A stretch of 64,000 bases of DNA from Fimbriimonadales bacterium (GTDB lineage Bacteria > Armatimonadota > Fimbriimonadia > Fimbriimonadales > GBS-DC): contig BPGO01000007.1 in assembly GCA_026003075.1 (NCBI GenBank), positions 62,001 to 126,000 on the forward strand. Reading direction: 5' to 3'. The notes beneath the pieces are model-generated. The model did no database searches. It saw only the letters and a program-made list of their open reading frames with translations, and was not told where the DNA came from. This document shows positions 1-52,561 of this stretch, piece after piece (positions within the stretch are counted from its first letter, which is position 1; the number at the start of each line of letters is the position of its first letter). Both the position numbers and the translations under genes were made by a program.

Positions 1-858
1 GGATCGGGCTATTCAGACTTCGTGAAGGCAGGAAACCAAGATCATTTGGCAGCGCTTCAGGCGTCCAAGCGTGTGCGTGAGGATAATACGGTTCGCCGTC
101 GCTATGTTATCCCTGGCTCCTCGTTCAAGGGCGCGGTGCGCAGCATCGTGGAAGCGATCACACCCTCGTGCGTACGAGTCGTTCAAAGAAAATATCGCCC
201 TTATCTGCCCCAAGGCTACGGCAGTTGCATATCAGTTGATCACCTCTGTATTGCTTGCCGTCTGTTTGGCGCGCAGGACTACCAAGCCCATATCAGTTTT
301 GAAGACGCAGTCGCCCCCAAGGGGTCTCTGGTGCTTCTCGGCGTCCCCCTGCTCTGGACGCCTGCACGCGGGGGGCGTGGACTACCTAAGTCCTATTTAA
401 ATAATCGTGATAACGCCAAAGGACGCAAGTTTTATCCCCATGCCGATTATGCGAAAGGTGCAGACCCTCGTACATGCATTAAGACAGGCGCCCACATCGA
501 AAACTGGCGGGTGCATTTTCTAAACCTCACTGAGGCGGAGCTTGGGGTGTTGCTCACCGCATTAGGATTGCATCCCAAGTATCAGTTCCCCATCAAAGTC
601 GGTGGCGGCAAACCCGTGGGGTTGGGCAGTATCAAGCTCTCTTTGGACGCGATGCAACTCATTCACAGCGAAGACGCCATCCGCCAAACAGGACGGCTGG
701 GGCAATCGCAACCTCTACAAGGAAACGCATTGCAGGAATACGTGCATCAATTGACCGCGCAGGCGCAGTCCCTTCTGCACGAAAAATCGCTCCAAGAACT
801 CGCGGATATTTTGACGGAGAAAGGTCTCCAGAATACCGCACCTGCTGGTCCGTACTGA
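1..858 (+). CDS. CRISPR-associated RAMP superfamily protein (Csm3/Cmr4-like, type III), 5'-truncated by window edge
   Basis: Frame open upstream of the listed start (GSGYSDFVK...); motifs IPGSSFKGAVRSIVE, CIACRLFG, and Gly-rich KVGGGKPVGLGSIKL, typical of RAMP proteins. Confidence 0.82.
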   Translation, partial: GSGYSDFVKAGNQDHLAALQASKRVREDNTVRRRYVIPGSSFKGAVRSIVEAITPSCVRVVQRKYRPYLPQGYGSCISVDHLCIACRLFGAQDYQAHISFEDAVAPKGSLVLLGVPLLWTPARGGRGLPKSYLNNRDNAKGRKFYPHADYAKGADPRTCIKTGAHIENWRVHFLNLTEAELGVLLTALGLHPKYQFPIKVGGGKPVGLGSIKLSLDAMQLIHSEDAIRQTGRLGQSQPLQGNALQEYVHQLTAQAQSLLHEKSLQELADILTEKGLQNTAPAGPY

Positions 859-868
859 GAGGAGGGAA

Positions 869-1177
869 ATGATGCCAAACTGGGACGCGATTATGAAAGA
901 GGCGAAACGCTTGGAGAATCTGCTGAGGCGGTCGGATATCGACCTCAACGAAGCCGAAAAAGCGCTGGGCTACTATATTTTCAAAGGCTACGATGACGCG
1001 GCGATGGAGCGCTATCTCGAGGAAATGGCAACAAATCCACCCCTTCGCAGCAATCGCACGCAAGGGTACTACAAAGAGCTGAGCCGAGTGTGGCAGCAGT
1101 GGAGCGCGCAGTGCGCGCTCAGCGGCATCGACAAAGCACGCGCCTGGGGCTGGGGCGTGAGAATGGCAAAGTCATAG
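869..1177 (+). CDS. Small alpha-helical protein, possible type III small subunit or accessory (unproven)
   Basis: 102 aa, starts 10 nt after the RAMP stop, preceded by ggaggg; position and size fit a Csm2/Cmr5-like subunit but no diagnostic motif. Confidence 0.4.
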   Translation: MMPNWDAIMKEAKRLENLLRRSDIDLNEAEKALGYYIFKGYDDAAMERYLEEMATNPPLRSNRTQGYYKELSRVWQQWSAQCALSGIDKARAWGWGVRMAKS

Positions 1178-1189
1178 GGGAGGAAGATT

Positions 1190-2485
1190 ATGGAACATGT
1201 TGCGATCCCGCTACGTGAGTTAAGTCCTAGAAAACTCGTGGAATGGGTAGTGCAAAAGATGAACGACGATACCCTACCCTCCGCGATGAAGGCACACCTG
1301 GAAAGCAAGCAAATTACGGACTATGCGTCTCTTGCTTTATGGCTATACCGAGTCTCCAACCCTGCGATAGAAGTTGTTAGCCTCTTTACAAATAACTCGC
1401 TTATTGAGTTTCTTAACGACATAATTATGTCCATATCGGAAGGAAATGTGTTAGAAATTTTTTTCCCCAGCAATAGAACTGTTAGTTTATCGAATACAGA
1501 AGCAAAAGATTTACTAACAACCTACTTCTCAGATTATACAAAAAACTTGTATGAACAATATACCAATTTTCAAACTTTAGGAGTATATCGGGACTTCGTG
1601 AAGATAAAGGAACACCTTAGTGAATTGGAAGGATCTCTTGCTCTCATCAAGCGACTATCTACGAGTCCTAACAGAGAAGATTTTCGGAGTAAATTGGAAG
1701 ATGCTGAGAAGACTGCAATGCGAATAGGAAAACTACTTGAAGAGATTCTGAATAGCTTTTTCTATGTTGTCCGGGAAATCACCATAATATCAAGCAAAGG
1801 TAAAATAGACATATTAAAAAAGTACAAATATCTAAAAAAATCATCTTGGGATTGGTCTACAAAAGAAAAGGTCTTGGACGAATTCATCAAAGACATCAGT
1901 CAAACTGAGGTGGACGACAGCTTACAGATTTTAGCGGGAGTCGTGCGTAATTTCTTGGACGCATACTTAGGGCGAAAAACACAAGAGAGTTTTATGACAG
2001 AAACAATTAGGAAGTGTAGAAACAAAAGCGCACATAGCAAATTAGAACTTCCAGACCTTGAAACAATTTCTCGATCTGTATCAAGCTGCATTCCCCAACT
2101 GGAACCTATGGTACCCCGTTGTTGCCATGTAGTAAGGTCAGAACTATCACCCTGGCTTACAGTTCTCAAGCTACGCATGGAAGACAAGAAGGAACTGGTA
2201 GAAGTTTACTATCCAACAGAACACCTTTTAAAGTATACTTGTTTTGATAAGTATGAAGATATAATAAGAGCGTCAGAAGATATTGATCTACTTCTTGCAC
2301 TCCCTACAGGGTCTTCATCTTATAGTCAATTCTTCTTGGTAAGATACGGCGAAGTTAACAACTATGGAAAGGTGAAATATCAATATTGTTTTGGCTCCCA
2401 AAGTAGCCTGCAGGATCTTGCAATAAAAGTAAAATTGAAGGAAATCCCCTTACTAGAGTACACTCATATCCAGGAAGCTGTTTGA
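1190..2485 (+). CDS. Uncharacterised protein with HEPN-like R-N-x3-H motif (RNKSAH)
   Basis: 431-aa ORF 12 nt downstream of the small ORF with SD ggagga; motif KCRNKSAHSK encoded at about 2012-2041; locally AT-rich. Confidence 0.55.
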   Translation: MEHVAIPLRELSPRKLVEWVVQKMNDDTLPSAMKAHLESKQITDYASLALWLYRVSNPAIEVVSLFTNNSLIEFLNDIIMSISEGNVLEIFFPSNRTVSLSNTEAKDLLTTYFSDYTKNLYEQYTNFQTLGVYRDFVKIKEHLSELEGSLALIKRLSTSPNREDFRSKLEDAEKTAMRIGKLLEEILNSFFYVVREITIISSKGKIDILKKYKYLKKSSWDWSTKEKVLDEFIKDISQTEVDDSLQILAGVVRNFLDAYLGRKTQESFMTETIRKCRNKSAHSKLELPDLETISRSVSSCIPQLEPMVPRCCHVVRSELSPWLTVLKLRMEDKKELVEVYYPTEHLLKYTCFDKYEDIIRASEDIDLLLALPTGSSSYSQFFLVRYGEVNNYGKVKYQYCFGSQSSLQDLAIKVKLKEIPLLEYTHIQEAV

Positions 2486-2581: not shown

Positions 2582-3629
2582 ATGAAATACATCAACGACT
2601 TTCTGCTTCGCCATGAACTACTTCTCTCCATCGGTGTGTTTGGAGTGGCGCAGATGGGGGCGGACATGTTGGCGGATTTGGAGTTAGGCACGGTGGCAGC
2701 GATGGTACGCGGGCTGGGCATTGCGCTGATTGTCGGAATACTGTTTCGAAGCCTGCTGCAGCGCAATCGTCCGATTGATGTGCCGCTGGTGTTCACCGAA
2801 GCCGAGAAGCGTGAGGATGCCCGCGCCCAACTGAAACAGTTCGAGGCACACACACGCACGGAGCGTATCGTGAAGCTACTGGATAGCAGCTCGCCCGTAC
2901 GCGAGGAGGAGCTGTATATCCAATTGCACAAAGTAAGCCAGCTGCGCCAAGCAAACGACTTTACCGTCTGGCGCGACGCACTGACCCAGCTGGTGCGCGA
3001 ATGGGACGAGGAAGTCGACGAGCGGCTCAAACGCTGGATTACAGGGCAGTACCAGGGCGTGGTGTATCATATCAGCCCCGATATTGTGCTGCCTGCGGCG
3101 TTCTACTTGGGTGCGGCGGTAGGGCTACGACGCGATGTGAAGATTTACCAGCGCAATAGTCCCGGCAACTATCACCTTGCAATCGATTTGGCAGGCAACG
3201 CGCGGCGCGTGCTGGAGCCACCGAGTGAAGACATTCCTGGCGTTAAGCAAATTCCTGCCGACGCTATCCCGCCCGAAACGCCCGGCGAACGGCTGATTGT
3301 GCACCTAAGCATCGGCAGGCATTCACCCAATTTTGAGGCACACCCCCGACCACGCGGCGGCGGTCTCCGTCGGCTTCCATTACCCCGAATCGCTACCCCA
3401 TGAAAGGGACTGGCTACCGTATGTGCAAGCACTTGTGCAGCGTGCCAAGCCATGGGTAGAGCGATATAGGCAGATAGATATCTGCTTGGCAGTGCCCCAC
3501 GCGGTCGCGATGGCGCTGGGGATGGCGTTCTCGCGCTCGCCTAAGGTGCGCCTCTGCCATTGGTACGAGGGCACGTACAAGCCTGTTTCGGAGCTGCGCT
3601 GGATTGAGCAGAAGTTGCCGTTCGATTGA
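2582..3629 (+). CDS. 2-TM + SAVED-like domain protein, interrupted by an apparent 1-nt frameshift near 3340-3347
   Basis: ORF 2582-3403 has two N-terminal hydrophobic helices then GVVYHISPDIVLPAAFYLGAAVGLRRDVKIYQ...HLSIGRHSPNFEA; ORF 3333-3629 continues in another frame with HAAAVSVGFHYPE...DICLAVPHAVAMALGMAFSRSPKVRLCHWY, as expected for the second half of a SAVED fold. Confidence 0.62.
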
Positions 3630-14437: not shown

Positions 14438-15156
14438 CCCAGCCCGTACACGGGGATGGCTGCGCCGTGGATGGCGCGTGCGGCGGGCGAACAGAGGAAC
14501 ATGATGACTTCGCCTAACGCTTCGGGCGCGACCCAGCGGCTGAAGTCGGCATCGGGACGCGCGGCGCGGTTGGATGGGGTGTCGATCGTGCCCGGCAGCA
14601 CGCAGTTCACATTAATCCCGTACTCTTTGAGTTCTGCAGAAAGCGATTCGGTAAGCCGTATCACGCCTGCTTTGGCGGCGCAGTAGCTGGCGCCACCACC
14701 GAACCCTGATAGTCCTGCCCTGCCCGACACATGCACCACCGCGCCCCCACCCGAACGGATGAGAATCGGTGCGATGGCTCGCGAGACGAGGAACGCCGTG
14801 CGCAGATTAATATCGAGCATCGAGTCCCAATCGTCAATCGGCGTTTCGTGGACGGGCGGCCCTGCTTTGAAGCCGCCGACGGTGTTCACCATGGCATCCA
14901 ACCTGCCGAATCGGTCGTCGATGGCTTGGGCAAGGCGTTCGCAATCTTCGGGGCGTCGGAGGTCGATTCCGCCCATGAGCAGGTGCTGGGGGTCTAACGC
15001 AAGGTCGGCGAACAGTTGGGTGAGCAAGGTGTCATCGCGGGCGCAGAGCGCGAGAGTCGCCCCCGCCTGATGGAACTGGCGGGCGACGACGCGCCCCAGG
15101 GCCCCTGTCGCACCGGTAATCAACACCATCTTGCCTGAAAAATCGAACGATACCAT
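14434..15156 (-). CDS. SDR family oxidoreductase
   Basis: VLITGATGALGRVVARQF, SYCAAKAGVIRLTESLSAEL; start set at MVSFDFSG. Confidence 0.9.
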   Translation of the reverse strand: MVSFDFSGKMVLITGATGALGRVVARQFHQAGATLALCARDDTLLTQLFADLALDPQHLLMGGIDLRRPEDCERLAQAIDDRFGRLDAMVNTVGGFKAGPPVHETPIDDWDSMLDINLRTAFLVSRAIAPILIRSGGGAVVHVSGRAGLSGFGGGASYCAAKAGVIRLTESLSAELKEYGINVNCVLPGTIDTPSNRAARPDADFSRWVAPEALGEVIMFLCSPAARAIHGAAIPVYGLG

Positions 15157-15192
15157 GCCGAAACGCCTCTTTATAGAGTATGCGCTGCGCTT

Positions 15193-15618
15193 TTGGCTTT
15201 CCCGCAATGGCTCCAAGGCTGCCTATATTATAGCGCATACGCTCGCTTGGGGGTGTGGGACGGCGTTGACGGGGTGTTTGGACTGTATCCGTATGCACGG
15301 GTGAACCCGATGCGATGCTATCGCGTTTCTGCTAAACCGCATCCTGTGTTCCGCGGCTATCGCAAAGAGGGGATTTGGTTCCCGAACGCGCCGGATTTCG
15401 TGGTGCTGCGCGAAGCCGAGCTGACCGAAGCGATTCGGGCGTGCCCCTTACTCATCATTGAGGAGGTGAGTTGTGATGAAGCAGACGATTCTCCGTTGGG
15501 CGTGGAGCGCCTTGAAGCCGACTCTGCTAAAGTGGCTCGACGAACGCGCGCTGCGTCTGCCCGCGCATCAACGCGACGCGCTCGCCCAACGCCTGCGCAC
15601 ACCCGTGCAGACGATTGA
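15193..15618 (+). CDS. Phage-like small protein resembling the FluMu N-terminal domain (boundaries uncertain)
   Basis: RVSAKPHPVFRGYRKEGIWFPNAPDFVVLREAELTEAIRACPLLIIEEV; the 3' part overlaps the next ORF by 146 nt and looks non-coding. Confidence 0.45.
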   Translation: MAFPQWLQGCLYYSAYARLGVWDGVDGVFGLYPYARVNPMRCYRVSAKPHPVFRGYRKEGIWFPNAPDFVVLREAELTEAIRACPLLIIEEVSCDEADDSPLGVERLEADSAKVARRTRAASARASTRRARPTPAHTRADD

Positions 15619-15679
15619 ACAGGTGGAGACCGCACTGCGCCAGATGGTGATTTATCACCTGGAACGCTGGAACCCTTAA
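15473..15679 (+). CDS. Small protein, phage-like island
   Basis: 68 aa, SD ggaggtgag upstream; co-directional compact cluster. Confidence 0.5.
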   Translation: MMKQTILRWAWSALKPTLLKWLDERALRLPAHQRDALAQRLRTPVQTIEQVETALRQMVIYHLERWNP

Positions 15680-15693
15680 GGGGGGGGTAAACG

Positions 15694-15969
15694 ATGGACT
15701 GGACGCAACTGATCCCGATTATTAGCGCGCTGGTGGGGTGGGCGTTTCTGCTCACCCGCCAAATCCTGACGCGCATGGATAAACTGGTGGAATCGGCACA
15801 GCGTCAGGAGCAGGCGATTACCGACGAGTTTATCGCTTACCTGCGTGAGAGCGTTGCCCGCACCGAAGCGAGTTATGAGCGTCTAGAGATCGCTCTGGAC
15901 GATGTACGCGACGCGCTGGTGAGCCTGCGCCACGCGATCACGCAGTGGCAGGAAGCCCACAAATCGTAA
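15694..15969 (+). CDS. Small single-TM + coiled-coil protein (holin- or phage accessory-like)
   Basis: IIPIISALVGWAFLL-like TM then long helix; co-directional with connector genes. Confidence 0.5.
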   Translation: MDWTQLIPIISALVGWAFLLTRQILTRMDKLVESAQRQEQAITDEFIAYLRESVARTEASYERLEIALDDVRDALVSLRHAITQWQEAHKS

Positions 15970-15979
15970 GGAGGCTGCG

Positions 15980-16378
15980 ATGCTCACAGTGACCCGTGCT
16001 GCGGTGAAGCGCAAGCTCCGTTTGACGACCAACGAGTACGATTCCGAAATCGACGCGCTGATTGACGAGATGGTGCCTGCCCTGCGCTACGCGATTGACC
16101 CCGAATATCTGAACACGAGCGACGCGGATTTGCTGGCGACTTTGAATCTGGGTGCGCTGGAGGTGGTTGCCGGCGAGATGAGCGCGACGCTCTATCGGGA
16201 GTTGGGTGCGTGGATGGGGTTTCGGCTGGGCTGGCTGCAGGTTGACCCACCCGCGCTGCGAAACCCCCGCGACCCGACGGGGCTGAAGGCGCAAGGCTAT
16301 GCTCGGCTCAAGCCGTTTCTGAAGCGCGACGCGCAGTTGCTGTATCTCTATCGCGAGCGTGAGGAGGGAGCGGAGTGA
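15980..16378 (+). CDS. Phage gp6-like head-tail connector protein
   Basis: TRAAVKRKLRLTTNEYDSEIDALIDEMVPALRYAI, typical connector N-terminus; SD aaggagg. Confidence 0.65.
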   Translation: MLTVTRAAVKRKLRLTTNEYDSEIDALIDEMVPALRYAIDPEYLNTSDADLLATLNLGALEVVAGEMSATLYRELGAWMGFRLGWLQVDPPALRNPRDPTGLKAQGYARLKPFLKRDAQLLYLYREREEGAE

Positions 16379-23783: not shown

Positions 23784-26700
23784 ATGAAGCTGTCGCTCAG
23801 AACGCTGCGCCGCACAGGGCGCACTTGGGTAGGTAAAACGGTCGCTCTTACGCTGTGTGTCGCGCTGACACTGCCCCCAACCTTCGGCGTCGCCGCTGAA
23901 CTGGAACGCCACCACCCGAAACGGGGGGGGGGGTAAACACTGAACATAGTACCACTGTCAACTGGATCGCACTCGCGAAAACCGCGCTTGCATTTCTCCC
24001 CGCCTATGTTAGCCTCGCTCTCGCTGCAACTCCAGACGACCCCATTACGGGCGACGACGGGGCGATTACTATCGCCGAAGCCAAGCCCTTGCTCTTCCCA
24101 CCTGCGCCGCTGGGCACAGGCACACCCTACCCGTGGCAAGGCGCGTTCCCTGTCCCCTACGGCGTCGTGAACCCCGCCAACGGCAACCTGATGCTCACAT
24201 TCACCCTCACTGGCTGGAGCGGCAAGGGTCCGAATGTGGACTTCACGCTGTTCTATAACCACCAAGACACCCGCTCCACTGAACTCGGCGTCGGCTGGCG
24301 ACACAGCTTCCTCGCGTCCGTGCAAGAAGCAGGCACGGCGGTCTGGATGGGGCGCACCTACCGCTTGGTGCATCTGCACGAACCTGACGGACGCCTGCGT
24401 GTGTACTACTGGAAAGGCAACACGATTAGCGGCGCGGGCGACCCGATGCGCGGCGTGGACGACATTCTGGAGAAACTGGAGGATGGACGGTATCGTCTCA
24501 CGCGGCGCAACCAGATGAAATGGGACTTTGACGCGGCAGGGAAGCTGCAGGCGATTCGCGATTTGCAGGGTCGTGCGCTGACGCTGACCTACAACTCCGA
24601 CGGCACGCTGCAGAAAGTTTCGGACGCTGCGAACCGCGAGCTGCAGTTCACCTACGAGAACGGACGCCTGCGCACGATTACCGACCCGCTGGGGCGCGTG
24701 TGGACGCTGCACTACAACGCAGCGGGGCAACTGGAGCGTATCCAAATGCCTGACCTCGTTTATGAGGGTACCGTGGAAGCGACGAATGTCGGGTTCGAGT
24801 TTGCTTACACCAGCGGCGTGCTGACACAGATTACCGACCTGATGGGGCGCACTGTGAACTTCGCTTACGAAAACGGCGAATGGAAGAGCTTTGCAGCATC
24901 GGGCGGTTTGTCAGGTGGCATGGGCGCGCAGGCGCCCGGCGGCAGCAACCCGTGCAACCTGCAAGGCTTTTCGCGCGTGCGCACCTATGAGGCAGGGGGC
25001 AGCACGGTTTCCTACGCCTACGACGCTTACGGACGCCTCGCTGTGCTGGCGACGCCGCCCAGCGCAACAGGTCAGCCGTGTCGGCACACGCGCTTTGGCT
25101 GGGACGACACGACCTTCCGCATGCTCTGGCGCGAGTCGCCCAGCGGCGCACGCTGGAGTTATGTGTACGATAGTCGCGGGAACGTGCGTGAGATGACTGA
25201 CCCTGCGGGGCGCAAGGTGCGGCTGGGCTGGAACAGCCTGAACCTGCTGGAGTGGGTGCGCGACGATATGACCCCGACGGGCTTTGACCGCCTGCGCTAC
25301 CTCTACTCGCCGGATGGGCAGGGGCGACTGGAGCGCGTGCGTCAACTGGCAGGCGCGCCGCATCGCAACGAGACGCCCACCTACGCCGAGACGGTGCTGC
25401 ACTGGCAGGATGGGCTGCTGGACTATGTGGTGGATGCACGCGGTAAACGCACGGCTGATTATGGCTATGACGAATGGGGGCAACTCACCAGCGTGGCAGA
25501 CGCGCTGGGCAACACCGACAGCAGCACGCGCAACATACTGGGCTGGACGACGCTCAGCACCGACGCCAACGGCAACACGATTACCTATCACTACGACAGT
25601 TGGGGACGGCTGCGCCAGAAAATCACCCCGAACGGAACCGTGACCTACACCTACAACTTGAACGGGCAGATGACCACGATGGTCGACGCAACAGGTAAGA
25701 CCGAGTGGGTCTACAACGCTCAGTCAGGGTTCTTGGAGAGCGAGACGCGCTCGCGCTCAGTGAATGGGCAGTACCAGGTAGTGTGGCAGGTGCGCTACGA
25801 CTACTACCCCACCACTGGGCAGTTGAAAGAGGTGCGCTTGCCCGACAACACTGAGATTGTCTACACCTATAAGTCGTTCACGGGCGAGTTGGAGACGGTA
25901 CAGCGCAACGGCGTTGTGGTCGCCCGCTACGATTACGATGCGTTCGGGCGGCTGCGGATGGTGGAGCGTCCGCGCAACTTTGACGCGGGCGAACGGGTCT
26001 ACTACGACTATCGTCGGGTGAACAACCGTGAGACGGACGAGCTGGAGCGCCTTCGGTATGTGTCGGCGTCGGGGCTGCTCAGTCCGGGCGGTCAAGTGCA
26101 GGAGACCGAGTGGCGTCGCGAGGAGTACACGCGCGACGGCTTGGGGCGCATCCAGCAGGTGCGCGAGTTCTGGAACGGCGCGCTCTATGCGACGGTGGAG
26201 TACACTTACGACCATCAAGGGCAGTTGGTGAAAGAGACGCGCACGCCTGCGGCGGGCGTTCAGACCGCGGCGTACACGATTGAGTACTGGTACGACTTGG
26301 TGGGCAACCGTTTGCAGCGGGTGCGCACGGTGAACGGGCAGACGCGCACGGATGTGCTGACTTACGATGACGCGAACCGTGTGGCGACGTTGAACGGCGT
26401 GGCGTGGCAACACGACGCCAACGGGAATGTGACGACGCGCGTGATGGACGGCGTGAGTTGGACGCTGAGTTATGACGCGCAGGATAATGTGATTAGCATT
26501 CGCCGCTTGGACGCGCCCAGTGGGGTATCCTATGAGTACGACGGTCTGGGGCGGCGGGTGCGCACGGTGGACGGCGTGGCGAACCAAGTGATTGAGTACG
26601 CTTACTCAGGCAGCACGCTGATTGCAGAGCGTCGCGGGAACGAGTGGGTGCCGATGGTGTACGGGTTGAACCTGTTGCAGCGTGGGGTAGTGAACCAGTA

Positions 26701-27394
26701 CTGGAGTTGGCGCGGCGACTTGGTTGCCACCAACGGCGCGAGCCAGCCCGCTCAGCCTGCGCCTGTGTTGGATGCGTTTGGCGACCTTGTATCGGGCAGT
26801 CCCGATGTGTATGCGTGGAACGGCGGTTGGGGCTATCGGTACGAGGTGGGTACGGGCGGCTTAGTCAAGGTCGGCGTGCGCTGGTATGACCCTGAGATTG
26901 GCAGGTTCCTGCAGAAGGATCCGTGGTTGGGGAGTGTGGCTTATCCACCTACACTCAATCGATATACATACTGTGTTAACGATCCCGTAACCCTAATGGA
27001 TTCTCTCGGAGCCACACCAGATTCTGCCGACCAACAGCAAAAATCGGATATCCCGTTACCTAAACTTCCTAGCAATCCCTTCGACCCCCGTATCCCAATC
27101 GGGGATACAGGAACGCACTTCGATCCCAGAACGGGCAGGATAGGAGCGCCGTTTGAGGCGGACCTAGGCGTGGGCAGCATCAAGGGCGAAATCACTTTTC
27201 CCGTTCCTCTGCCAGGTTCGCAACCTTCTCCGCCAACGATTAGTGGAAGTGTATACATCCCAATAATTAAGCAGGATTTAGGCGGTGGTCTCACCTTTGA
27301 GGTAGGAGCAGGGATTAGTGGTTCTTACACACCGCCTGGTCCTCCTCGTTGGTCTTCCCCATATGCCCGAGCAGGACTCAGCTGGAGTTGGTAA
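23784..27394 (+). CDS. RHS/YD-repeat protein with RHS core, 5' end out of frame across a G11 tract
   Basis: SD gggagg, ATG 23784 [50 protein letters not shown]; remaining ORF (open from the G tract to 27394) carries many YD repeats and [17 protein letters not shown]. Confidence 0.85.
23923..23933 (+). repeat. Homopolymeric G11 tract inside RHS 5' coding region
   Basis: acggggggggggg followed by taaac; G9 or G12 would join the signal-peptide frame to the RHS frame. Confidence 0.9.
26614..26932 (+). repeat. RHS core repeat copy 1
   Basis: Near-identical DNA to 28966-29195 and 30506-30809. Confidence 0.92.
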
Positions 27395-27403
27395 GACAGG
27401 GTA

Positions 27404-27430
27404 GGGAGCAGGGAGACCATCCCTGCTCCC
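27404..27430 (+). other. Intergenic hairpin GGGAGCAGGGA-gacca-TCCCTGCTCCC
   Basis: 11-bp perfect stem, 5-nt loop, between RHS stop and next ORF. Confidence 0.75.
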
Positions 27431-27451
27431 CCTTGAGCAGGAGGTACAACA

Positions 27452-28912
27452 ATGATTATGATGACTATGAAGCGAACGCGGAGGACCATAGCTGCATGGC
27501 TGATAATCAGTGGTCTGTTTCAAGTAGTTCACGCACAACTGCTTAGCAAACCGTTAGCTCTTGAGCTTCAGAGCCTTGAGAGATACCAGACGCTTACGGT
27601 TCAAGTAAAAATCAACGGCGTCCCTACCAGATTGTTCGTAAGCAGCCTGCGTTCCGAGCCACTTATTTTGTTCCAACACAGCCTCCAAATGCTGGACATC
27701 AAAGAGGACGGCGGTGAAGAAGTCCCTGTGCGCTCAGTGGAACTGATAGAAAAAACAGGTGGTACAAGCCGACTAAGCGTTGCAAGCGCCCACGTGGTCA
27801 AAATATCCGATGTAGATGCTTATGTGAGCGGCGTTTCGGGTATCTTGGGTGCTGGGTTGTTCGCGATTGCTCCTGTTGAGATCGACTTTGAAACCAACAC
27901 AATGATTCTGCACAGTCGCTCGCTACGGGAACTGATTGACTCCCAACCAGATGAGTGGACTGTGATTCAACTCAAGAAGCTCCGTGATTCGCGCAGTCCA
28001 TTATACAATCTATTGCCGGTTCGACTCTCGGAGAGCTTAACTCTCGATATGATTATAGCGATTGACACGTGGTACTCAAGGATCCCTGCGAAACTCATGG
28101 CTCAAGCGGATTTAGAAGAACTGCATCCGCTGATGGTCAGGTTTCCAAGCACATCATCTTCGTACTACCTGAGAGGTAAGCTCCGAACGGTGCAGGTCGG
28201 CAACCTTTCCCTGAGGAACTTGATTATGGACTTTGATTTGGACGACACTGTGCCTGTGCTTGGGCTGAGTATGTTTTATGCATTTCACCGCCTCATCATA
28301 GACATGCGCACAGGCGAACTGGCTGTGCATCGTTCTTCCGTCAAGCCAGTCGTGCTGGAGGGAGGCTACACGGGTATCTTGCTTGCTCGCGATGCGAAGG
28401 GGCAGATTTATGTCTCTTCTCTGGACTCGCTATCGCCTGCCGATAGAGCAGGACTCGCTATGGGCGATGTTATCACGTCTATTCAAGGAATTCCGATAAG
28501 CGTACTCTCGCTTGCCGAAGCCCAGAAACTGATTCAGGGCTACGAAGGGCGTCCCGTACAAGTGCAAATACTTCGCGAAGGGCAGGTTCGAGAGATACGC
28601 TTTACTCCGGTGTCTTGGTATCGCGGCGAGCTGAAGGATAGGGACTGGGAGTTGGGATATTATGAGTTGGATGGGAAGAGCTACTGGCTCATTCGCCGCT
28701 TAGCTCCTTGGCTACACGCGTTAGGTTTGCGAGTCGGCGACATCGTCACTAAAATTGATGGTTCCGACATGCGCGAGGCCCTTGCTGCGCTGGTATGGAG
28801 TGTGCGTGGACGCGAAATATCCGTTCGGCGTTTGGGCGGCTCGGACACGCTTGATTTCAAGATTCCTGCCGAATCTTCGCAGCCCGACTCCGTCTCCAAG
28901 AGTGGTGATTAG
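27452..28912 (+). CDS. Secreted retropepsin-like and PDZ domain protein
   Basis: Signal peptide; [14 protein letters not shown] and [17 protein letters not shown] retropepsin-like segments; PDZ-like [42 protein letters not shown]. Confidence 0.7.
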
Positions 28913-28916
28913 CGTG

Positions 28917-29621
28917 ATGGTATACAAACTGGGTTTACCCCGACTGAATAAGGCAGGCTACTACAGGAGTTGGCGCGGCGACTTGGTTGCCACCAACGGC
29001 GCGAGCCAGCCCGCTCAGCCTGCGCCTGTGTTGGATGCGTTTGGCGACCTTGTATCGGGCAGTCCCGATGTGTACGCTTGGAACGGCGGTTGGGGCTATC
29101 GGTACGAGGCGGGCACAGGCGGCTTGGTCAAGGTCGGCGTGCGCTGGTATGACCCGACGATTGGCAGGTTCCTGCAGAAGGATCCGTGGCTGGGGGATGT
29201 GCATCAGCCCCTCACGCTGAATGCGTATGGGTATTGTACGAACGATCCCGTGAATTACTTTGACCTTGAAGGCTTTCTGAAGGTCAAGGTGAAGATAAAA
29301 GTGGAAGCCAAGGTGACTATAGAGGCTGGCAGCGGAAGCGTTGTACCTGGTGGGAATACAAAAGTTGAAATAAGCGCCTCTGTGGAGGTAGAGGTTGAGC
29401 TGGAAGGTAAGGACATGGAAGAAATTGGGCGGAAAATCCGAAAGATATGGAAAGAGATGTTAGAACAACTAAAGCAAGATCTAGAGGAGCAAGCACGTGA
29501 GCAGGGGAGGAAGAAGCGTTCTTCTGGATCGCAGCAATCCTCTACACCTAGATTTGTACCCCCACTAAGACCTATGCCAGGAATGGCGGAGCGACTCGGC
29601 AGCGGATGGGTATACCATTAA
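28917..29621 (+). CDS. Orphan RHS C-terminal cassette with different tip domain
   Basis: RHS core from [17 protein letters not shown] to [10 protein letters not shown], then unrelated [17 protein letters not shown]... tip. Confidence 0.75.
28966..29195 (+). repeat. RHS core repeat copy 2
   Basis: Nearly identical to part of copy 1. Confidence 0.92.
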
Positions 29622-29629
29622 TCATAATC

Positions 29630-29654
29630 GGGGAGAGGCTCGTGCCTCCTCCCC
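29630..29654 (+). other. Intergenic hairpin GGGGAGAGGC-tcgt-GCCTCCTCCCC
   Basis: About 10-bp stem with one bulge, between orphan RHS stop and next ORF. Confidence 0.65.
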
Positions 29655-29669
29655 ACTTGGAGGCGGCAG

Positions 29670-30071
29670 ATGATGAAAACCTTGCGAAACCACTGGCACC
29701 TGTTGAGATTCCACATTCTTGTGGGGATATTCGTACTAGGAACAGGCATAATATCGACGACTATCCTGTACGCGCGTCCCAGTGAACAATCTCCTGAAGT
29801 CGCCTACAAGCAAGAGGCGGCTTTCAAAGGAGATGAGAGCGTACAAGTGAAGCGGTTGAAGTATCGTGTCCAAGTTCGGGTTGCTGGCGATGCTGTCTGT
29901 GTGGAAGGAACTGCTGAGGGCGAGATTGCACTTGCCGACCGTTCGTTGAGTGTGGACGAGGTTCTACCGATTGTGCGTGAAGCCGCGAGGGATACTATCG
30001 ATTTTACTGTTGACGAGTGGGCAGCACGAGCAGGCAAGGTGGTTGAACCAGGACATTGTCGACGGAGGTAG
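29670..30071 (+). CDS. Uncharacterised single-TM or exported protein downstream of RHS cassette
   Basis: 133 aa, N-terminal TM HILVGIFVLGTGIISTTILYA, SD ggaggcgg. Confidence 0.5.
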   Translation: MMKTLRNHWHLLRFHILVGIFVLGTGIISTTILYARPSEQSPEVAYKQEAAFKGDESVQVKRLKYRVQVRVAGDAVCVEGTAEGEIALADRSLSVDEVLPIVREAARDTIDFTVDEWAARAGKVVEPGHCRRR

Positions 30072-30078
30072 CGAGTTG

Positions 30079-30414
30079 ATGTTGGGCTTACTTGCAGGAG
30101 TTATTCTGTGTCTGCTATCCATGATCTTGGCTTCGTACCTGGTGAGGCTGCTTTGGCTCTCTTGTGCGGATATCGAGCACCTCACGAGTGAAAGTGCAAC
30201 GCACAATAGGATGTGGTGCCAGTTAGGATCACGCTTTGGTAGAATATGGGCTGCTTTCGTATCGCTGCTGAGTACTTTCGTAGCAGTAATGATGCTTATA
30301 TACCCTCTTGGCTCGCCAGTCAGGTACGCTTTGATAGGTCTATCCATAAGCTTGGCGTTGCTCTCTGTGGTTATTGCGCTTTGGGCAGAGCGTCTCAAGC
30401 AGCAGATGCACTGA
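30079..30414 (+). CDS. Small multi-TM protein downstream of RHS cassette
   Basis: MLGLLAGVILCLLSMILASYLVRLLWLS...; ATG 30079 with SD ggaggtagcgag. Confidence 0.5.
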   Translation: MLGLLAGVILCLLSMILASYLVRLLWLSCADIEHLTSESATHNRMWCQLGSRFGRIWAAFVSLLSTFVAVMMLIYPLGSPVRYALIGLSISLALLSVVIALWAERLKQQMH

Positions 30415-30479
30415 CCTAGCCGAATCCACTGGATGTGAGTACGGATTTTCATTGGTCATTACATCGCGCGGAGGGTATT

Positions 30480-30818
30480 ATGATAGACTGCCATGTCATA
30501 GGCGACACGCTGATTGCAGAGCGTCGTGGGAACGAGTGGGTACCGATGGTGTACGGGTTTGACCTGTTGCAGCGTGGGGCAGTGAACCAGTACTGGAGTT
30601 GGCGCGGCGACTTGGTGGCGACCAACGGCGTGAGCCAGCCCGCTCAACCTGCACCTGTGCTCGATGCGTTTGGCGACCTTGCATCGGGCAGTCCCGAGGT
30701 GTACGCTTGGAACGGCGGTTGGGGCTATCGGTACGAGGCGGGCACGGGCGGCTTGGTCAAAGTCGGCGTGCGCTGGTATGACCCGGCGATTGGCAGGTTC
30801 CTGCAGAAGAATTCGTAG
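30480..30818 (+). pseudogene. Truncated RHS core fragment (copy 3) lacking a tip
   Basis: [30 protein letters not shown]...IGRFLQKNS*; core ends abruptly. Confidence 0.7.
30506..30809 (+). repeat. RHS core repeat copy 3
   Basis: Near-identical to copy 1, lost homology at CTGCAGAAG|AATTCG. Confidence 0.9.
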
Positions 30819-51352: not shown

Positions 51353-52561
51353 ATGCCTATCACTATCGAGGACTTGAACGACCTGAAGCGCCTGCTGGAG
51401 GAGCATCCCGACTGGCAGGAGACACTGGCGCGCGCTCTGCTAACGCCTAAAACGCTGTTGAAGATTTTCAAGTCCGATCCGGAGTTGCAAGCGATATTAC
51501 GCGCTGTGATTTTGGGGGAAGAGTTTCTGGAACTGCCCGCCCTCACCCGCGAAGCCATCCAGCGGCTTGGCGCGTTAGAGAGCGTTACAGGCGATTTGGT
51601 GCAACGCACTGGCGCGTTGGAGGAAACCTCGCGCGATACGGTGCAGCGTCTTGGCGCGTTGGAGGAAACTTCGCGCGATACGGTGCGGCGTCTCGGCGCG
51701 TTGGAGGAAACCTCACGCGATACGGTGCAGCGTCTTGGCGCGTTGGAGGAAACCTCACGCGACACGGTGCAGCGTCTTGGCGCGTTGGAGGAAACCTCAC
51801 GCGATACGGTGCAGCGTCTTGGCGCGTTGGAGGAAACCTCGCGCGACACGGTGCAGCGTCTTGGCGCGTTGGAGGAAACCTCACGCGATACGGTGCAGCG
51901 TCTTGGCGCGTTGGAGGAAACCTCGCGCGATACGGTGCAGCGTCTTGGCGCGTTGGAGGAAACCTCGCGCGACACGGTGCAGCGTCTTGGCGCGTTGGAG
52001 GAAACTTCGCGCGATACGGTGCGGCGTCTCGGCGCGTTGGAAGCCGAAGTAAGGGACTTAAAGGAAACCTCGCGTCAAACTATAGAGCGTTTAGACCGCT
52101 TGGAGGCGAGTCATCGCGGCTTGGAGGGACGATTGGCGGGTGAGCAGTATGAGAAGCGGATTCTGCGTTCAGCATGGCGGCTATTCAATGGAGGTGATGG
52201 GGGCAGTCCCGAAGACCGAGCCGTCGCGGAACGGTTGCGGGAGTGGTTAAGCGCGAATCGTGCGCTGGTAGCGCGCATCCACGAAGAGGATGACCCCTAC
52301 CTGAGCGACCTCATCTGGTGGAAAGAAGGGCGTGTGGCGGTGGTGGAGGTCTCGCTCAAGGTGAACGGCGTCGATGTGCAGCGGGCCCATGCCCGTGCGC
52401 AGACACTGCGGGAAGCAGGAGCCGATGCGTTCCCGCTGGTGATTGGTAACGAGTGGGCACACCCCGAATCGCGCGACCTCGCCGAGCAACTCCAAGTCGC
52501 ATGGAAAGTCGGCGACGATATCTCTCAAGGGTATATTAACTTCCGCCGCATGGGGGACTAA
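51353..52561 (+). CDS. Coiled-coil protein with ten 14-aa repeats and C-terminal PD-(D/E)XK-like domain
   Basis: ETSRDTVQRLGALE repeats then SDLIWWKEGRVAVVEVSLKVNGVDVQRAHARAQTLREAGADAFPLVIG. Confidence 0.7.
   Translation: MPITIEDLNDLKRLLEEHPDWQETLARALLTPKTLLKIFKSDPELQAILRAVILGEEFLELPALTREAIQRLGALESVTGDLVQRTGALEETSRDTVQRLGALEETSRDTVRRLGALEETSRDTVQRLGALEETSRDTVQRLGALEETSRDTVQRLGALEETSRDTVQRLGALEETSRDTVQRLGALEETSRDTVQRLGALEETSRDTVQRLGALEETSRDTVRRLGALEAEVRDLKETSRQTIERLDRLEASHRGLEGRLAGEQYEKRILRSAWRLFNGGDGGSPEDRAVAERLREWLSANRALVARIHEEDDPYLSDLIWWKEGRVAVVEVSLKVNGVDVQRAHARAQTLREAGADAFPLVIGNEWAHPESRDLAEQLQVAWKVGDDISQGYINFRRMGD
51623..52042 (+). repeat. Tandem array of ten 42-bp repeats
   Basis: Unit about gaaacctcgcgcgatacggtgcagcgtcttggcgcgttggag. 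Confidence 0.95.

Follow-up and report, generated by a model that had tools for sequence, protein, structure and literature searches.

HEPN RNases of type III CRISPR systems have been described as fused to their sensor. The HEPN fold consists of two alpha-hairpins, with the conserved motif ending helix 3, and this motif is defined as Rx4-6H with a polar residue (usually N) after the R (PMC3710099). In type III-D systems, Cas10 rarely has an HD nuclease, and these systems are thought to act mainly by cOA signalling (PMC11229360). We analysed a 64,000-nt stretch ("the window", G000:C7:62001-126000) of the 2.6-Mb draft genome of a Fimbriimonadales bacterium, and we propose that one of its ORFs (P0002) encodes a HEPN RNase that serves a type III-D system as an ancillary effector and lacks a recognisable CARF domain (we put the probability at roughly 0.6). 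Among open-access papers, we found none on Csx21 in type III systems, on HEPN by CRISPRicity, or on type III-D in Armatimonadetes. The gene csx21 encodes a small protein associated with types III-A and III-D.

All genes of the operon, which apart from the ORF is conserved, run in one direction, in the order cas10-cas7-csx10-cas11-cas7-cas7-csx19-cas7-csx21-ORF-TM-SAVED. The translation of cas10 (L003:12508-14394) contains the GGDD cyclase motif, and on this motif we predict that Cas10 is cyclase-competent. We suspected at one point that csx10 was frameshifted, which would have suggested a poor assembly, but tblastn with orthologues from other genomes showed that it is intact and open over 15057-16241 in a single frame. 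The window begins within the last cas7-like (RAMP) gene, whose 3' part lies at 1..858 on the + strand (full gene L003:18854-19858; PADLOC matches to Csm3/Cas7_IIId). It is followed on the same strand by csx21 at 869..1177 (PADLOC Csx21, E=1e-36, and synteny) and by the ORF at 1190..2485. The initial annotation placed the ORF next to a RAMP operon; we can now say that it lies inside a type III-D operon, in a slot that recurs across six genomes, as would an ancillary gene. In G172, a CRISPR array (L037:29-1397) with about 21 copies of a repeat (GTTTTTAGCCTACCTGTGAGGGATTGAAAC) lies downstream of the TM-SAVED gene, at a distance of roughly 5 kb. The 20 kb upstream of the window locus showed no comparable array.

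The ORF has an ATG start and an open frame of 431 codons, and the RNKSAH sequence that had been noted in it is exactly where reported (R277-N278-K279-S280-A281-H282, at 2018..2035). It had also been described as belonging to no known Csx or Csm family, which agrees with our searches: at curated cut-offs there were zero PADLOC or NCBIfam matches, and the Pfam match to HEPN_Swt1 is below threshold. An N-terminal helical domain (residues 1-125, at 1190..1564) was delimited by alignment and shuffle tests; W19 is invariant and a hydrophobic/F...W pattern is common to all six members. Next is a HEPN-like helical region (residues ~127-310, at 1568..2119), as judged by the HEPN_Swt1 match, a local Swt1 profile, and a low-confidence AlphaFold2 model. 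The C-terminal domain (residues 311-431, at 2120..2482) is of uncertain fold (pLDDT 25-54) and probably contains beta structure. Pfam, PADLOC, and NCBIfam gave no CARF match in this protein, which is a sequence-level result, as the flanking domains are of low confidence in the model. We detected no ligand-binding fold in the domains that flank the HEPN region, and these flanks are poorly conserved between members.

The one relative that sequence searches with P0002 turned up was a piece of the N-terminus in G171 (45% over 77 residues), and direct homologue searches of genome contigs, viral contigs (IMG/VR), plasmids, and phages gave no matches. We located the other family members by their synteny with csx21, not by the motif. 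The named relatives that were found via csx21 come from metagenome-assembled genomes of Fimbriimonadales/Armatimonadota, one of which is complete (KatS3mg018). In all six genomes that contain the ORF (G000, G161, G167, G171, G172, and G175), it is directly after csx21. Besides P0002, the full-length members in this slot are P0001 from G161 (423 amino acids), P0003 from G175 (L027; 395 amino acids), and P0004 from G172 (L037; 419 amino acids). The G167 member is cut by contig ends (its N-terminus is on C122 and its probable C-terminus is on C205), and the G171 member is a remnant of 101 amino acids. The complete genome G164 has csx21 with nothing comparable behind it. Shuffle tests link P0002 to the G171 N-terminus (z = 38.6), G171 to P0004 (z = 7.6), P0004 to P0001 (z = 10.9), and P0001 to the N-terminus (z = 16) and the C-terminus (z = 6.4) of the G167 member. 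P0003 is tied to the family more weakly, by global z of 3-6 plus its position. Weak matches in two other genomes were rejected as chance: the one in G134 (L006) is a different AT-rich ORF of 378 amino acids in a locus where csx21 is absent, and the one in G116 (L020-L021) is a frame with stops that runs over apparent pantothenate genes.

When P0002 is shuffled, 1.2% of the resulting sequences contain RNxxxH (28% contain R-x4-H alone), and by itself the presence of RNxxxH in the ORF is only mildly unusual. The motif goes beyond chance because it is kept in homologues that were picked by gene order. Three of the four full-length members have it: RNKSAH in P0002, which fits the HEPN definition (Rx4H, with the polar N after R), RNKIAH in L027, and RNAVRH in L037. 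The fourth, P0001, has IREFGNIFHH, a GNxxxH form in which the R of RNxxxH is missing. The form R-x2-G-N-x3-H is also present in DUF4145 proteins and some Swt1 proteins of the same phylum, and GNxxxH is common in DUF4145. A motif that was not conserved in homologues would have counted against the initial annotation, and this is not what we found. Moreover, the three proteins that retain the R, N, and H together are only ~24% identical, which argues for catalytic constraint.

Pfam places residues 192-286 of P0002 in HEPN_Swt1 (PF18731) with E=7.6e-4, at 20.2 bits against a gathering score of 27.5, and P0003 has an independent match to another family of the HEPN clan, DUF4145 (PF13643), with E=1.2e-3. 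Because E-values of this order also occur with unrelated families (P0002 with DUF643), these sub-threshold matches are weak on their own, so we turned to other Armatimonadota and built phylum-specific profiles from 19 of their Swt1-HEPN domains and 15 of their DUF4145 domains. We searched them against the four proteins, 104 ORFs of at least 200 amino acids (two of them P0002 and P0004 themselves), and 2,000 shuffles. The top three matches to the Swt1 profile were P0003 (13.7 bits), P0002 (9.5 bits), and P0004 (5.5 bits), and all three overlap the motif; all other ORFs and all shuffles scored lower than these three (best shuffle, 4.4 bits). These scores are small, but the ranking is a fair test because gene order, not the motif, had led us to P0003 and P0004. 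With the DUF4145 profile, P0003 ranked first. Sequence searches of the PDB with P0002, P0003, P0004, and the family profile returned noise alone.

The check that had been suggested, AlphaFold plus Foldseek for a HEPN bundle, gave low-confidence models. An AlphaFold2 model of P0002 from five sequences had a mean pLDDT of 54. In this low-confidence model, the motif ends one helix (265-282), before another (287-330), which is the placement described for HEPN (PMC3710099). VIA aligned residues 127-314 of the model to HepT chains (Z of 9.5-10.2, rmsd of 2.8-3.8, 106-124 residues), but designed four-helix bundles tied, and Z below 13 may be generic for helical bundles. Foldseek gave no match at E ≤ 0.001. 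A model of the HEPN region of P0003 from three sequences (pLDDT 57) gave a VIA list without a HEPN entry, which is uninformative at such confidence. Taking the profiles and the motif together, the family is quite probably HEPN, of the Swt1/DUF4145 kind. The earlier description of the ORF as a HEPN-like RNase effector thus gains from the motif in three of four members, the profile matches, and the operon context; it is still a prediction, with models of low confidence.

The ORF was said to be more AT-rich than its neighbours, and it is: its GC content is 38.7% (37.5% at third codon positions), as compared to 54.7% for cas7, 56.3% for csx21, and 57-61% for the SAVED gene. The same holds for each of the five members of the slot that could be tested (43.3% in G161, 43.0% in G175, 35.6% in G172, and 40-41% for the G167 pieces), which are in GC-rich surroundings (56-61% for csx21). 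Since all testable members are AT-rich and the cas genes are not, AT-richness is no mark of the arrival of the CRISPR locus, and it is a lasting property of the gene or of repeated replacements at the slot. The idea that the ORF was gained horizontally along with the CRISPR locus is therefore weak, as the slot is also syntenic within one taxonomic family. The HEPN gene alone may have been replaced recurrently. Its divergence far outpaces that of its neighbours: HEPN proteins from different genomes share ~24% identity, as compared to 48-78% for csx21, 53-75% for cas7, and 45% for TM-SAVED. Such fast divergence suggests a conflict with viral inhibitors. Repeats were also seen elsewhere in the window and in L003. 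An ORF of 402 amino acids (window 51353-52561) contains about 10 near-identical 42-nt tandem repeats (14 amino acids, GALEETSRDTVQRL), a coiled-coil-like stretch ahead of a distinct C-terminal domain. Eight copies of a GC-rich tandem repeat of ~55 nt, with 'PLPPRGRG'-like translation, are at L003:5103-5593 and are probably non-coding. A 300-nt direct repeat occurs three times at window 26589-30780 (71-90% identical), within a lower-GC stretch (27-33 kb).

Behind the ORF is TM-SAVED (2582..3629, + strand), with N-terminal hydrophobic helices and a SAVED domain (PADLOC SAVED4 matches in both halves). In the window, TM-SAVED is frameshifted at a run of C's (~3337-3347), and in the alignment to P0005 one half stops, and the other starts, at a common AHP-D point. 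As csx10 is intact, this frameshift stands alone; it could be either genuine or an error in the homopolymer. L037 and L086 (genomes G172 and G166) carry intact orthologues, of 344 and 348 amino acids. In G171 the gene is split over two contigs, with the TM stub on C76 and the SAVED end on C101, and in G167 it is a truncated stub. Decay of this sensor gene seems to be recurrent in the genus.

In the ORF's product, we propose, the N-terminal helical domain is followed by a central HEPN domain (Swt1/DUF4145 kind) whose active site would be RNxxxH, and then by the small C-terminal domain. Most likely it would be a non-specific RNase that is kept inactive at first. On detecting foreign RNA, the Cas10 complex would make a second messenger, and the activated HEPN protein would cleave RNA and so arrest the infected cell. 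Our confidence differs among these parts. We predict the HEPN fold with strong confidence. We have moderate confidence in RNase activity, because the R, N, and H are conserved, and also in second-messenger control, because Cas10 has the GGDD motif. Control via TM-SAVED, where that gene is present, is weakly suggested. As no CARF domain was found, gating would be by a partner (TM-SAVED or Csx21) or by an unrecognised domain of the protein itself. With one gene for a HEPN protein and another for a membrane sensor, this operon of hot-spring Fimbriimonadales would have an unusual layout for a known kind of antiviral effector.

If TM-SAVED senses cOA and directly gates the hypervariable HEPN RNase in trans at the membrane, then the two genes should be seen as one split effector. 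The HEPN protein has no recognised sensor domain, and TM-SAVED is behind the HEPN gene in four of the six genomes: the genes are co-directional and adjoining in the window and in G172, the frames overlap in G172 (by 14 nt) and with the stub in G167 (by 17 nt), and in G171 the HEPN remnant is beside the separate TM stub. However, we did not find a match to TM-SAVED in G161 or G175 (where the contig ends 142 nt past the HEPN gene), the TM-SAVED gene of G166 lacks a HEPN gene directly in front of it, and in the window the HEPN frame is open while TM-SAVED is frameshifted. The pairing is therefore not obligate, and gating exclusively by TM-SAVED is probably not how the HEPN protein works; we regard the split effector as rather doubtful. 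A somewhat better possibility, albeit short of even odds, is that the two proteins are independent effectors (an RNase and a membrane effector), and that the HEPN protein senses the messenger via its own unrecognised N- or C-terminal domain or via Csx21 or the Cas complex. Several effectors can be present in one type III locus (PMC11229360), and the linkage to csx21 (6/6) is more complete than the linkage to TM-SAVED (4/6). The flanking domains of the HEPN protein, with their poor conservation and no detected ligand-binding fold, do not favour this.

The protein might instead be helical and HEPN-like but have little or no catalytic activity, and its function might be structural or regulatory, such as that of an adaptor in the III-D complex. 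This would fit with the absence of the motif's R in P0001, the very fast divergence outside of the motif, and the low-confidence models, but not with the joint retention of R, N, and H in three otherwise dissimilar proteins, and we consider it unlikely. It is more unlikely still that the ORF is a stand-alone toxin that was acquired horizontally and is beside a CRISPR operon by chance. HEPN toxins do show rapid evolution and often occur in conflict systems (PMC3710099), and the gene is AT-rich and hypervariable. Synteny disfavours this, as six genomes, which represent several genera, have the gene in this one slot. Also, its AT-richness is common to all testable members, there is no adjacent MNT antitoxin-like partner, and no homologues were found on plasmids, phages, or IMG/VR contigs.

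We return to the ancillary RNase effector of type III-D and compare it to known systems. The Swt1-like/Abi2 HEPN (PF18731) and DUF4145 HEPN (PF13643) proteins share with it an Rx4H motif that has N next to the R and closes a helix at its C-terminal end, and they are the best profile matches of three family members. The family differs from them in scoring below the curated cut-offs, in its other flanking domains, and in its fixed position in the III-D operon. HepT of the HepT-MntA system resembles the ORF's product in the VIA alignment of the low-confidence model (127-314), a likeness that is not decisive because designed helical bundles tie; also, there is no adjacent MNT nucleotidyltransferase, and the neighbours in the window and in G172 are csx21 and TM-SAVED. 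The downstream gene is akin to SAVED4 TM-SAVED and CalpL (Lon-SAVED) by its PADLOC SAVED4 match and N-terminal hydrophobic helices. Unlike CalpL, it is too short to have a Lon domain, and it adjoins a HEPN gene instead of CalpT/CalpS. Like the ORF, the Csm6/Csx1 CARF-HEPN RNases have a HEPN-type motif and are encoded by ancillary genes of type III loci with a GGDD Cas10. In the ORF's product, however, sequence profiles detect no CARF domain, and a separate TM-SAVED gene is often behind it. A hypervariable HEPN protein that has no recognisable sensor and is always by csx21, and often by a membrane SAVED protein, would mean that sensor and effector are separable or that it has an unrecognised sensor domain. 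The family also gives csx21 a candidate partner. A split effector, if true, would differ from the fused CARF-HEPN or SAVED-effector proteins that have been described for type III systems.
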